Made by a program: the position numbers and the translations under genes. A stretch of DNA of 34,105 bases from Patescibacteria group bacterium. GTDB taxonomy: Bacteria > Patescibacteriota > Minisyncoccia > Moranbacterales > GWC2-37-73. The notes beneath the pieces are model-generated. The model had not been told where the DNA came from, did not search any database, and saw only the letters and a list, made by a program, of their open reading frames with translations. Shown piece by piece: positions 20,440 through 27,342 of the stretch (within the stretch, counting starts at the first letter, position 1; each line of letters opens with the position of its first letter). The stretch is from the NCBI GenBank assembly GCA_022709545.1, contig JAKLIP010000005.1:1-34105 (forward strand), read 5' to 3'.

Positions 20440-20515
20440 CGGGGTGTGGTGTCAACGGCTAGCACGAGTGGTTTGGGACCATTTAGACAGGGTTCGAATC
20501 CCTGCACCCCGACCA
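20440..20515 (+). tRNA. tRNA-Pro (anticodon TGG), CCA encoded
   Basis: The acceptor arms CGGGGTG (20440-20446) and CACCCCG (20505-20511) pair fully. The anticodon stem AGTGG/CCATT encloses the loop TTTGGGA, giving anticodon TGG. The T arm CAGGG-TTCGAAT-CCCTG (20488-20504) is perfect. Discriminator A is followed by an encoded CCA. The 3' part is overlapped on the opposite strand by the recombinase ORF. Confidence 0.95.
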
Positions 20516-22108
20516 GTTGAGACGAACAGAGGCAAGAGCCTCTGTTTTTGTTTTATTCAAAGGTAGTTTATGCAGTTCTAACCTTTCATATTCTGCTTTT
20601 AACGCAGGATAACCATTTTCAATTGGCACAAGCCATTCATTGGCTTGAATAGTGAGTTTTCCATCTAAAATTATCGGGTGCGAACCTAATCCCATTAAAA
20701 TTTCTTTTTTCTTTTGCAAATCACCAGTTAAAAACTCTTTGTGAGCATAGGTCGCAAAGGTAAAAGTTTTTTCCGTAAGCTCTAGCCAGTTTTCTGCCCT
20801 GTTTTCTGTCTCCCTCAATTGTTCTTTTATTTTTAGAATATCATTCTGAAGCGTTTCTTTTTCTTTTAAAAACTGTTCATCATCAATCAGCATACGATAT
20901 CTCATTTTTGTAAGCTCATCCAAATTATTTTGTTTTTCTGTTAAGGTTTTATGTTGCATTTCGTAAATTCTGGCTCTGCATTCAATCTCATTGTCGTTTT
21001 TACTATTTAAATCCTCTAATGCCCATTCCAAAAATTCAGGCAAGATAGAAAGTTTACTAATCTCCCGTTCAATTTGAAGCTCTAAATCTTCTTTTCGTAT
21101 AGCTTTTCTTTGCGAACAATTTAAATCTCGCTTTTTTCTAGTGCAGTGATAGTAAGTAAATTCTTTTATCTTACCAGTGCTTCTAATAATTTTTCTTTTA
21201 GTTTCTGCTGTATGCACACAACCGCATTCACCGCAACGGATAAGTCCAGTAAAAGCAAACTCGTGTTTCTTTGGTCTTGGCTTTCCTTTTCTTCCTAATA
21301 ATATTTGCACTCGGTCAAACTCTTCCAATGAAATCATAGCTTCGTGTTTACCTTGATATTCTTTGCCACGACAAGAAATAATTCCAGTATAAAAAATATT
21401 AGTAAACATTCTATAAATACTGCTTCTTGCAAGCTCCTTCCCGCCGTGTTTTTTGTATTTTCTTGTGCGATATCCCCATTGTTTATTTGCTATATTCAAT
21501 ATTTTAGGTGGGGTATAACTTCCAGTAAGCATCAAATCAAACATTTTGCGAATAAGATTAAAGCGTTCCTCATCTTTTATGATAGTTCTGCTTGCTGGGT
21601 CATTAAGATATCCCTCTGGCGGTAAGCTTGGAAGCCAGCCATCATTACGCTTTTTCTCATTACCTCTTTTTACATTTTTGCTAAGGTCTAATATGTATTG
21701 ATTAGCCATTCCACTTTCAACACTGAAGAGCAGAACATTATCATCTGGAAGAAATTGCCTATCTATTGTTTGAATTGATTTCATTATCCCTTGCTGAAGC
21801 ATCCAACTAATTTTTCCGCTATCAATCGGATTTCTTGATAAACGATTTATTTGCCAGCATAAAATTCCGTTTGCTTCTCCATTTTCAATTCTTTCCATCA
21901 TTTCATCAAAGATTGGTCGGTTGTTTGGTTTCTTTGCTGACTTTGCTTCAGTATAGATTTTCTTAATATCCAAATTTAAATCACGAGCAAGTTGCTTTAG
22001 ACGATTAACTTGGTCATCAATAGACTGAACTTGTCGGTCTTCGTTTTCCGATGATTTTCTAGCATAAAGGAAATATTTAATTTTTTTATCATTGTCATTG
22101 TTTTTCAT
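20483..22108 (-). CDS. Large serine recombinase (site-specific integrase)
   Basis: This 541-residue protein has a resolvase-type catalytic domain starting YFLYARKSSENEDRQVQSI (probable nucleophile S19), NRLSRNP (about 104-110), and a recombinase domain with PPEGYLND. A zinc ribbon (CGECGC ... YYHCTRKKRDLNC) and a long coiled-coil segment (about 380-450) follow, the order of large serine integrases. Such enzymes insert and excise elements at short att sites. The last 20 or so codons are antisense to the tRNA-Pro terminator and T arm, and the stop (20483-20485) lies inside the tRNA. The C-terminus therefore probably comes from the integration site. The start is ATG in the context AATTATATG. A pseudoknot-forming inverted repeat lies just upstream. 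Confidence 0.92.
   Translation of the reverse strand: MKNNDNDKKIKYFLYARKSSENEDRQVQSIDDQVNRLKQLARDLNLDIKKIYTEAKSAKKPNNRPIFDEMMERIENGEANGILCWQINRLSRNPIDSGKISWMLQQGIMKSIQTIDRQFLPDDNVLLFSVESGMANQYILDLSKNVKRGNEKKRNDGWLPSLPPEGYLNDPASRTIIKDEERFNLIRKMFDLMLTGSYTPPKILNIANKQWGYRTRKYKKHGGKELARSSIYRMFTNIFYTGIISCRGKEYQGKHEAMISLEEFDRVQILLGRKGKPRPKKHEFAFTGLIRCGECGCVHTAETKRKIIRSTGKIKEFTYYHCTRKKRDLNCSQRKAIRKEDLELQIEREISKLSILPEFLEWALEDLNSKNDNEIECRARIYEMQHKTLTEKQNNLDELTKMRYRMLIDDEQFLKEKETLQNDILKIKEQLRETENRAENWLELTEKTFTFATYAHKEFLTGDLQKKKEILMGLGSHPIILDGKLTIQANEWLVPIENGYPALKAEYERLELHKLPLNKTKTEALASVRLNWSGCRDSNPV
20526..20549 (+). terminator. Rho-independent terminator after tRNA-Pro
   Basis: ACAGAGGC (20526-20533) and GCCTCTGT (20538-20545) form an 8-bp stem with an AAGA loop, followed by a T-run (20545-20549) and TTTTATT. 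It lies inside the 3' end of the recombinase ORF on the other strand. Confidence 0.85.
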
Positions 22109-22140: not shown

Positions 22141-22251
22141 AGATACTAAAAGGACGGTTCTGACTTGTCCAACTTTCCAAAGGATTGCTGGCAGAACCGC
22201 CCATCTAGTAAGACGATAAAATCCTTTGGTTATTGAGTTGGACAAGTATCT
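22141..22251 (-). other. Complex inverted repeat with potential pseudoknot upstream of the recombinase
   Basis: Read on the minus strand, an 11-base arm CTTGTCCAACT and a 9-base arm CCAAAGGAT pair with ATCCTTTGG and AGTTGGACAAG (plus-strand arms 22164-22174 with 22236-22246, and 22177-22185 with 22221-22229). The 35-base apical loop contains CGGTTCTG, which can pair with CAGAACCG just 3' of the stem (22192-22199 with 22155-22162), forming an H-type pseudoknot. An outer pair AGATACT/AGTATCT (22141-22147 with 22245-22251) competes with the stem base. It may be a structured RNA leader controlling recombinase expression, or a DNA recombination site. Confidence 0.75.
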
Positions 22252-22254
22252 AAA

Positions 22255-22860
22255 TTATAGCATTTTTGTGTTTTTTAGCAACGCATAATTAGAGTGGCTT
22301 TGGTTCAGAATTTTAATCATTCGCCTGTATTTTCTGGTCGGCTTCCCTGCGTAGTAATGACGCTTCAATCCTTCATTAATCTTTTCCATCTTTTCCTCCA
22401 TATCAAGCACTTTGAATACATATCTGTATTTTGATTGTCGGTTTTCATTCTTTGATTTATAGGTTAACTCATAGCAATGCCGACATCCGAAATAATCTCC
22501 GCTCTTATAAAGCACACCAACTCTTCTGCCACAGAAAACGCCATTTTTTGAAAGCGGACAAACGAACCAATATCTTTTACCGCCGTAATTGCAAGGGGAA
22601 GAAACCAGTGATGCTCTGTAATCAAAGTTCTTTTTTTCTCCATCATCTTCGGTCTGGGAATAATTGAAGCGGATATAATTTTCTCCATCCAGTATGGAAA
22701 CTGTAATGCCTATGCTGTCATTTTTTTCCGACCAGCTATTGCTCCACTGAATTCCACCAGATTTCCATCCATCCAGATAGCCATATTTTTTCAGCCACCA
22801 CATTTCAACTTTTTTCAATCTATCTGCTTCTGTTTTATTTGACCAACTCCATCTTCCCAT
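22255..22860 (-). CDS. Zinc-ribbon-like protein of unknown function
   Basis: This 201-residue protein begins MGRWSWSNKTEADRLKKVEMW. It has a beta-rich middle and a cysteine cluster: CNYGGKRYWFVCPL, then VFCGRRVGVLY and FGCRHCYELTY (about residues 112-152), suggesting a zinc ribbon. The C-terminus is basic and helical. I recall similar uncharacterised proteins in Patescibacteria but cannot name a function. There is no transposase catalytic triad. It ends 4 bases from the pseudoknot element and precedes the recombinase on the same strand, so it may be co-transcribed with, or a partner of, that element. The start is ATG in AATTATG context. Confidence 0.65.
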   Translation of the reverse strand: MGRWSWSNKTEADRLKKVEMWWLKKYGYLDGWKSGGIQWSNSWSEKNDSIGITVSILDGENYIRFNYSQTEDDGEKKNFDYRASLVSSPCNYGGKRYWFVCPLSKNGVFCGRRVGVLYKSGDYFGCRHCYELTYKSKNENRQSKYRYVFKVLDMEEKMEKINEGLKRHYYAGKPTRKYRRMIKILNQSHSNYALLKNTKML

Positions 22861-24969: not shown

Positions 24970-27342
24970 CTATTCTTCAAACACTTCGGGAGTTTGCTTT
25001 TTTAGATATTCACTGATATCCGAATTGTTTTCATCTTCTCTGTTGTCGGATTTTGTATTTTTATCTAGCGGTGGAATTAGAGTAATTTTAATTTTGTACG
25101 AGTTCCCATTTTTTTCAGAAGATGTGTGATAAGGATAAAATGGGTCATAGTCTAGTGAAAAATAGTCCTGAAGTGATTTTGCCAAAAGTTCTTTCTGTTT
25201 CTTATACTTATCTCTTGCTTCAGGATTTTTAATGGCAAGCTCACCGTTAACTTGTGCCAATACTTTTAGAAATGTCCACGCTCCACTCGGATTAGGATTA
25301 TTACCCTTGCCAATAAAGCCCATATCTTTATAGCTAGCGTTTTCTTTGAATTGCTTTACTTGGATAAAAACATTTTCGTTATCTAAAAATTTGATTGTGA
25401 AATTTTCCCACCTTGTACCAGCAGGAAGCTTATGTGGAAATTTTTGTTTAGCTTCTAATTTTGTTGCAACAATTGCTTTTAGCCCTTCCTGTAAGCCAAT
25501 GACCTCAATTTTCAGTGGAGTTGTTGACATACCAAAAAATGGAGCGAGTTTATCTTGAGCAATTTTACCCTCATCATTGAGAAACTCATCTTTTGTTTTT
25601 GTTAGAGTTTCAGACGATTGTAGATTAAAATAAATTTTGCTAAATTCTCCCGCTATTTCCCGCTCTAAAATTGGAGTATATTTTTCTATAACGGTTTTTT
25701 CATCAACTTTCTTTTCATTAACAAGAAGCCAACCGAATAATCGGTGCAGTTTTTCAACTAGAAATATGCCCATCGTCTGAATTTCAAGCGATTTAGATTG
25801 CAGTGCTTCATAAACCAGTTCTTTTATTGCCTCGTCTTCTTCAATATCTCTTAAATAAACAGCAAAATAGTAATATGTTGCTCTTTCTCCTTCTGTTTTT
25901 GCATTTCTGATATGTCTTTTAATATCATCTAAATTAAAACCCAAGCTTGCAGAGGGGTCTCCCTTTTCTTTCATATAAGCTCTGTAAAAAAATGCCAAAG
26001 GTCTAAAAAATTTAGCTTTTGGGTCTGCTATAATCCTATCTAATTCCATTTGAAAACCAGTATGATTTTTAGCAAACAGGGGAGCTGAAAGAACCTTTAG
26101 GAGCCAGAATTTTGTCCAATCAGTAAGCGAGTTACTATGATAAGTTTTCCAAACCCTCTCATATTTTGAATGAATGATATCCTCCTTTGCCCCATAAAGA
26201 AACTTGTTTAGTTCAGAAAAGTAAAAACCTAAATATCTGCACACTAGATAAGTTAGAGAGGGTCTCATTAAAACCAAAGCTATTAGGTCATTGAGCATTT
26301 CTGTGTTTCCTAAATCTACCCCAGATTTAAGATAATATTTTAAGGCACTCATTTCTGTTTTTTTGGTATCATTTCCATTTTTTATTTTTCTTAATATAGT
26401 TGGTATCTTCTTGCCTATTCTTGCAATTTTTTGTTTAGAAGTTTCATTTAAGTTACCGTATGGATTATAAAACTTCAATTCTTCAATGCCTGATGTGTTT
26501 TTAAGTTTTTCTAATTTAGTTTTTTCATTAAGCCTTAGATTATAGCTCCTTAAAAACAATACTAATTTGTCTACTATGTGGTTTAGCGTATCGGCACTTT
26601 TTGACATTATTACTATATCATCAGCATATCGGAAGTATTCAAAATCCCCATTGCTCTTTAAGTCATCAATAAATGTATCAAGCGGATGGAGATAAGCATT
26701 TGCCAAAATGTGAGAGGCGTTAGCTCCCTGCGGAACACCGCACATAGTTGGATTTTCCGACCAGCTCTTTAATTGTTTTGATAATATTTCAAGAATTTTA
26801 GCATCATTTATTTTGAATTGTTCATTTAATACTTTTAAAAGAGTGTCTATGTGTATATTTTCATAATAAGTTTGTATATCAAATTCAACACGCCAAGTTA
26901 ATTTTTTTTCAAATGCCTCTATTTGCTTATCGCAAAAAAATACCCATTGGTTCTTGTATGGTTTGAGAAATTTTTCTTTACTAGCTATCCTGTTGCCACA
27001 ACAAAAGCTGAAAAGTTTTTTATCAATTATATTACCTAAAACGGATGGGTTAAGAAGAGCTTGGAAAATTATCCTATCAACAACTGAAAATATGCAGATA
27101 GGACGAACTCCTAAATTATCTTTTGAAGCATAAATATAGTCAGCTTTATCTGGTTGATATTTTCCTTGTCTTAGATATTCCTGAAGCGTTTCAAAAAAAT
27201 CATCGCCAAGATGAACAATTGCACTTATTGAAGGTCTCCAAATTGGGTCTAGGGGCAGGCTACTTTCATCAGTTTCATATTTTAAATATAAGAAAGCCTG
27301 TTTAAGATTTTCTTTAGAAGTAAATTTATCAAACAAATCCAT
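24970..27342 (-). CDS. Reverse transcriptase with a long C-terminal region; not a group II intron enzyme
   Basis: This 790-residue protein has an N-terminal RT domain: VRPICIFSVVDRIIFQALL (79-97), motif A VEFDIQTYYENI (D155), motif B GVPQGANASHILANAYLHPLD (202-222), and motif C FRYADDIVIMS with YADD (239-242). The catalytic aspartates are intact. After the RT core come about 480 residues: a helical region (about 330-600) and a C-terminal part (about 640-770) with GTRWENFTIKFL and a basic WTFLKVLAQVNGELAIK segment that could be a winged-helix-like domain. I see no maturase X domain, HNH nuclease or retron NAxxH element. Architecture fits the abortive-infection/defence RT groups (DRT/UG), which is inference. 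It starts with AATTATATG, has its own terminator, and lies divergently from the DUF5320 gene. Confidence 0.85.
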   Translation of the reverse strand: MDLFDKFTSKENLKQAFLYLKYETDESSLPLDPIWRPSISAIVHLGDDFFETLQEYLRQGKYQPDKADYIYASKDNLGVRPICIFSVVDRIIFQALLNPSVLGNIIDKKLFSFCCGNRIASKEKFLKPYKNQWVFFCDKQIEAFEKKLTWRVEFDIQTYYENIHIDTLLKVLNEQFKINDAKILEILSKQLKSWSENPTMCGVPQGANASHILANAYLHPLDTFIDDLKSNGDFEYFRYADDIVIMSKSADTLNHIVDKLVLFLRSYNLRLNEKTKLEKLKNTSGIEELKFYNPYGNLNETSKQKIARIGKKIPTILRKIKNGNDTKKTEMSALKYYLKSGVDLGNTEMLNDLIALVLMRPSLTYLVCRYLGFYFSELNKFLYGAKEDIIHSKYERVWKTYHSNSLTDWTKFWLLKVLSAPLFAKNHTGFQMELDRIIADPKAKFFRPLAFFYRAYMKEKGDPSASLGFNLDDIKRHIRNAKTEGERATYYYFAVYLRDIEEDEAIKELVYEALQSKSLEIQTMGIFLVEKLHRLFGWLLVNEKKVDEKTVIEKYTPILEREIAGEFSKIYFNLQSSETLTKTKDEFLNDEGKIAQDKLAPFFGMSTTPLKIEVIGLQEGLKAIVATKLEAKQKFPHKLPAGTRWENFTIKFLDNENVFIQVKQFKENASYKDMGFIGKGNNPNPSGAWTFLKVLAQVNGELAIKNPEARDKYKKQKELLAKSLQDYFSLDYDPFYPYHTSSEKNGNSYKIKITLIPPLDKNTKSDNREDENNSDISEYLKKQTPEVFEE

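Follow-up and report, generated by a model that had tools for sequence, protein, structure and literature searches.

A structured leader RNA family upstream of recombinase genes in mobile elements of Patescibacteria and its probable role as a transcription attenuator

Transcription attenuators such as the trp and greA/rnk leaders and the "mobile attenuators" of Naville and Gautheret (2010; PMC2965389) combine an intrinsic terminator with an antiterminator, and in the usual design the antiterminator pairs with one strand of the terminator. In the antisense attenuators of pT181 and pIP501 (PMC3753616) the leader is ON by default and terminates when its 5' part is occupied. Pseudoknot riboswitches, such as those for preQ1 and fluoride, show a loop-to-flank pairing next to a terminator, while integron attC sites are folded recombination sites with RYYYAAC/GTTRRRY arms. 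The locus described here lies in a stretch of 34,105 nucleotides (GCA_022709545.1, contig JAKLIP010000005.1, positions 1 to 34,105; hereafter the window) and reveals features recalling each of these systems. It is one member of a structured leader RNA family, situated on the minus strand between a predicted promoter of its own and a large serine recombinase gene, and we read it as a probable transcription attenuator. How mobile elements of the Patescibacteria control integration is, to our knowledge, unstudied, and this family provides a defined RNA element in front of recombinases, methyltransferases, nucleases and a Cas12a, which could also serve as a search handle for integrated elements in these genomes and as a compact genetic part.

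The original prediction had described stems of 11 and 9 bp, an 8-bp loop-to-flank pairing and a competing 7-bp outer pairing within 111 bases, and as an observation it was confirmed, since all four pairings exist. The stems, P1 and P2, are in fact 12 and 10 bp long, and the loop-to-flank helix P4 has 8 perfect pairs, 11 bp when a G-T is counted and up to 16 positions through the T-run. The 7-bp outer pairing is not conserved, as an equivalent was found only in 2 of the 56 parsed elements scanned, the window and locus L032 (L numbers denote the loci compared here), and four of its bases lie upstream of the predicted transcript start; it was hence rejected as a conserved part. All features of the locus are compiled in Table 1.

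Table 1. Positions of the leader elements and neighboring features in the window, with the findings on which each assignment rests
Feature	Position	Strand	Description	Basis
Promoter	22254..22281	-	-35 TTGCTA (22281-22276), 16-nt spacer, extended -10 with TG before TATAAT (22259-22254)	Promoter scan, 10 of 12 positions, TG before the second hexamer
Predicted transcription start (+1)	22247	-	First base of P1	7 nt after the -10 hexamer; same geometry in relatives
P1 5' arm	22236..22247	-	ACTTGTCCAACT	Pairing analysis
P2 5' arm	22220..22229	-	CCAAAGGATT	Pairing analysis
P4 5' arm	22192..22202	-	GGGCGGTTCTG, in the apical loop; extends to 22207 with mismatch	Pairing analysis; conserved across relatives
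P2 3' arm	22177..22186	-		Pairing analysis
P1 3' arm	22163..22174	-	AGTTGGACAAGT, directly abutting the P4 3' arm	Pairing analysis; gap 0 in 38 of 58 elements
P4 3' arm	22152..22162	-	CAGAACCGTCC, followed by TTTT	Pairing analysis
Perfect 8-bp part of P4	22155-22162 / 22192-22199	-		Pairing analysis
T-run	22148..22151	-	UUUU in RNA, after P4	Sequence; T-rich in relatives
Outer 7-bp pairing	22141-22147 / 22245-22251		Not conserved	Scan of 56 elements
Large serine recombinase	20483..22108	-	541 aa, the presumed regulated gene	Pfam PF00239, PF07508, PF13408 (Resolvase, Recombinase and zinc-ribbon domains)
Zinc-ribbon gene	22255..22860	-	Upstream neighbor, not a defining part; TAA stop inside the -10 box	Open reading frame; no Pfam or NCBIfam match
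tRNA-Pro	20440-20515		Overlapped by the recombinase 3' end
Reverse transcriptase	24970-27342		Closest to defence-type UG19/UG21 RTs; in the same tRNA-Pro-inserted island	PADLOC

The region folds better than dinucleotide shuffles (z -3.03, reached by 0 of 200), and a joint score for P1, P4 and the T-run amounted to 60 for the window element, whereas 0 of 2000 shuffles reached it, with a maximum of 38.5. A DNA search of the genome revealed only the window copy plus short chance matches, so that the element is single copy there, and it is the only hit of our strict descriptor in the window. Comparison with Rfam 15 showed only tRNAs in the window, no match at gathering score in 11 related loci and weak chance matches only. 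Literature searches yielded no description of this leader, though with open-access papers only this absence is weak evidence.

Whether copies at comparable positions in related genomes and covariation exist had been named beforehand as the test of the observation, and both were found. Starting from the zinc-ribbon protein alone, without prior use of the structure, 21 of 286 genomes of the phylum were obtained; in 12 of those 21 loci a recombinase match lies beside it, and in 10 of these 12 the same anatomy was read by eye, the two exceptions being L008 and L012. Model R1, built from 8 sequences with P1 pairs, hit 27 of 379 Patescibacteria genomes at E<=0.01, and 25 of the 27 loci contain a recombinase match, L047 and L051 being those that do not. 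Model R2, built from 28 sequences with P4 pairs and loosely thresholded, hit 43 of 379 at E<=0.05; four weak hits (L209, L218, L219 and L221) revealed no P1 and were dropped. Further R2 hits in the genomes G647 and G656 are not included here, and other genomes which, as far as coordinates show, repeat earlier ones were not counted again. A P4-only DNA pattern over the GTDB contig set (84,980 species) matched 13 stretches, mostly titled as Patescibacteria lineages or plain "bacterium" and one as a "Bacteroidetes" MAG; all 13 have P1, which was not in the pattern, and a recombinase-like frame downstream (that of L056 judged from its translation and subsequently confirmed), while four of them appear to repeat loci already collected. 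The same pattern gave 0 matches in IMG/VR, where the zinc-ribbon protein also had no relative, and relatives of the recombinase in plasmid records were only distant.

The Bacteroidetes-labelled MAG (contig NVRZ01000041.1, L227 / L065) carries the leader and recombinase although 147 other genomes of its phylum show none. Bacteroidota as a host was not upheld, since R2 hit 1 of 148 genomes of the phylum of genome G385, namely G385 itself, and the strict descriptor hit 1 of 30 recombinase loci there, again that of G385, probably reflecting a misbinned contig or a transfer.

Altogether, 58 elements were parsed, and in 50 of them a large serine recombinase frame lies downstream on the same strand within 1600 nt, in 43 within 200 nt. 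The other eight are L047 and L233, preceding Mod methyltransferases (Pfam DNA methylase; PADLOC type III methyltransferase), L215 and L232, preceding staphylococcal-type nucleases (SNase), L213, where a leader with P1, P4 and a longer T-run (L213:401-560) precedes a Cas12a gene, and L217, L051 and L056b, whose genes are unassigned; the first frame of L051 is a short unknown ORF, followed by an HTH-like frame. Some of these share a contig with a recombinase member (L233 with L055, L056b with L056, L051 with L210 and L232 with L067), suggesting coordinated control within an element. L216 and L217 are kept among the 58, but their arms were misparsed, and they are therefore left out of the folding, arm-swap and outer-pair counts (n = 56).

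Covariation was evaluated on an alignment of 28 sequences (A2), in which MAFFT did not align P2, so that only P1 and P4 were counted. The score was 0.338 versus 0.178 +/- 0.012 for shuffled alignments (0 of 500) and at most 0.163 for slid versions, with 15 of 21 pairs changed on both sides. Swapping arms between elements lowered pairing from 99.8% to 55% for the inner 10 pairs of P4 and from 98.4% to 56% for the outer 9 pairs of P1 (n = 56). As most of these elements were found with models containing P1 or P4 pairs, these numbers lean upward.

The same comparison speaks against a folded single-stranded recombination site or an element end acting at the DNA level, which we consider very unlikely. 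The original prediction had noted GTCCAAC/GTTGGAC in the arms of the window, fitting the attC core; the window and 5 other elements match the core motifs in both P1 arms, but 52 of 58 do not, promoter geometry and T-run fit an RNA, and a search of the genome with TIGR02249 gave 0 integron integrases over cut-off, with weak matches as in the control genomes. The other end of the recombinase gene, at tRNA-Pro, is the likely integration junction. The proposal of a small element ending with the zinc-ribbon gene is likewise not supported, since the structure occurs without that gene and L008 and L012 carry the gene beside a recombinase without the structure. This zinc-ribbon family is nevertheless often found directly upstream of the recombinase, with or without the RNA, and is a candidate partner such as a directionality factor. 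In sum, the original interpretation was partly supported, namely in its first option, a regulatory RNA leader of the recombinase with mutually exclusive folds, which is supported by homologues, covariation, promoter position and gene association.

In 33 of 57 elements a hexamer matching TATAAT at 5 or 6 positions lies exactly 6 nt before P1, the next base being the first of P1, while no other spacing from 0 to 15 exceeds 6 and 24 of 57 elements lack such a hexamer at the exact spacing; T is commonest at -35 and -34. On the antisense strand the best position reached only 4 of 58. This bears on an antisense-RNA-controlled attenuator of the pT181/pIP501 type, in which an antisense RNA would pair with the P1 5' strand or loop and trigger P4: mobile elements use such control, and the computed bistability described below is what it needs, but no conserved antisense promoter was found, rendering this reading unlikely.

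An upstream open frame stops within 20 nt of P1 in 27 of 57 elements, and the 7-nt distance given by the TAA within the -10 box of the window recurs in other members. The structure might thus be an insulator that mainly stops transcription from the upstream gene, whereby a ribosome finishing that gene would cover the P1 5' strand and allow P4 to form, while transcripts from the leader's own promoter would escape; IS 5' terminators with a similar protective role are described (PMC2965389). However, 24 of 57 elements have no such stop within 40 nt or none at all, and many of the close stops are the TAA inside the -10 box, which explains the spacing without coupling, so that we regard this as an unlikely, though the least unlikely, alternative.

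A sequence-free descriptor demanding P1, P4, T-run and -10 gave 50 distinct sites in 0.96 Mb of collected loci on both strands, and none in three sets of shuffles (2.88 Mb); these loci were selected for carrying the RNA or a recombinase, which means that this is not a genome-wide rate, and one hit (L067 +, 5327) may be chance. Four of 22 IMG/VR recombinase loci (L275, L276, L282 and L283) carry the leader by this descriptor, so the module also occurs on contigs called viral. Among recombinases in general, PF07508 gave 122 matches in 61 of 116 phylum genomes, all of which were inspected, 111 as newly retrieved loci (6 of them truncated) and 11 already collected. The leader is present in 9 of the 11 and in 10 of the 111 (L083, L085, L086, L109, L155, L159, L164, L168, L169 and L178), hence in 19 of 122, with two more doubtful (L156 and L166). 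On a FastTree of 122 recombinase rows, a different set of the same size comprising most survey rows plus leader-bearing loci, the label needs 18 changes (shuffled mean about 36; at least 10 forced by starred branches), so the leader is clustered but has been gained, lost or moved repeatedly. This tree wrongly included L216 as a very long branch, so that 18 may be one too many, and L168 was still labelled as lacking the leader.

With a nested folding model, the minimum free energy (MFE) structure contains P1 in 46 of 56 elements and P4 in 8. When the P1 5' strand was forbidden to pair, P4 appeared in 46 of 56 and failed to appear in 10, so blocking the extreme 5' end flips the predicted fold in most. 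The median cost of forcing P4 is 5.7 kcal/mol, but only 0.6 for the window (-35.7 versus -35.1 kcal/mol). P4 plus a T-rich tail is present in all 58 parsed elements by construction of the descriptor; one of the dropped R2 hits, L209, was an ordinary terminator of the same AAAAGGGCG...CGCCCTTTT form, showing that P4 looks like the terminators of these genomes.

Our preferred explanation, held with moderate confidence, is a 5' leader acting as a transcription attenuator of the large serine recombinase. In this view, RNA polymerase starts at the first base of P1 and the emerging RNA folds into a long hairpin of P1 and P2, in many relatives with a third stem, whose loop holds the 5' half of a terminator, the 3' half and a T-run following P1 with no spacer. 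If P1 closes, the terminator halves would be held too far apart for the complete P4 to form, and polymerase would read on into the recombinase; if the P1 5' strand is blocked or displaced, P4 would form as an intrinsic terminator and transcription would stop after about 100 nt. While the conserved pairings, their covariation, the promoter geometry, the gene association and the computed bistability were established by our analysis, it is only by inference that P4 terminates, that P1 antiterminates, that premature termination is regulated in the cell and that the two helices exclude each other sterically. The latter was judged from helix lengths, the P4 5' arm lying in the loop at the far end of a stem of about 20 or more pairs, and coexistence of P4 and P1 is not excluded. 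The P4 loop is moreover long, as its arms enclose the 3' arms of P1 and P2, the T-run is short (4 in the window), and in some members it is itself paired into P4; at L043 (1495-1627, minus strand) P4 extends through the T-run into paired GC bases, making a plain U-tract terminator less obvious. With no conserved antisense promoter found, no signal is identified. In A2, invariant columns are few and mostly in P4 and T-rich parts, P2 not being well aligned, and this scarcity of strongly conserved unpaired bases may argue against a metabolite aptamer, whereas a trans RNA, a protein or a fixed low readthrough level remain possible. A pseudoknot activating translation or stabilizing the mRNA appears unlikely: P4 lies just upstream of the recombinase start in most members, but the T-run would be unexplained, and the start codon and any SD lie outside the structure. 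More tentatively, and less likely than not, the family might represent a new class of bacterial gene switch, apparently confined to Patescibacteria and their mobile elements or viruses, in which terminator and antiterminator exclude each other only by knot topology and which is used as a portable module to co-regulate the DNA enzymes of mobile elements (recombinase, Mod methyltransferase, nuclease, Cas12a) in answer to one common signal.

Compared with integron attC sites, the window has similar arms, but the motif is absent in most relatives, and a predicted promoter and a T-run are present. As in the preQ1 and fluoride riboswitches, a loop-to-flank pairing is found next to a terminator, here a putative one, but little unpaired sequence appears to be conserved, so that no aptamer is apparent, and the knot helix would itself be the terminator. 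With the pT181/pIP501 attenuators the leader would share the default ON state and termination upon occupation of its 5' part, but its architecture is different and its gene is a recombinase instead of a replication gene. With the attenuators of the trp, greA/rnk and "mobile" kind it has in common the predicted mutually exclusive folds, a terminator-like helix before the presumed regulated gene and, as for the latter, the association with mobile-element genes, though the terms "pseudoknot", "recombinase" and "integrase" do not occur in the main text of PMC2965389. In contrast to their usual design, the two helices here share no base: the 5' half of the putative terminator sits unpaired in the loop of the putative antiterminator and its 3' half abuts the stem, so they would exclude each other by topology.
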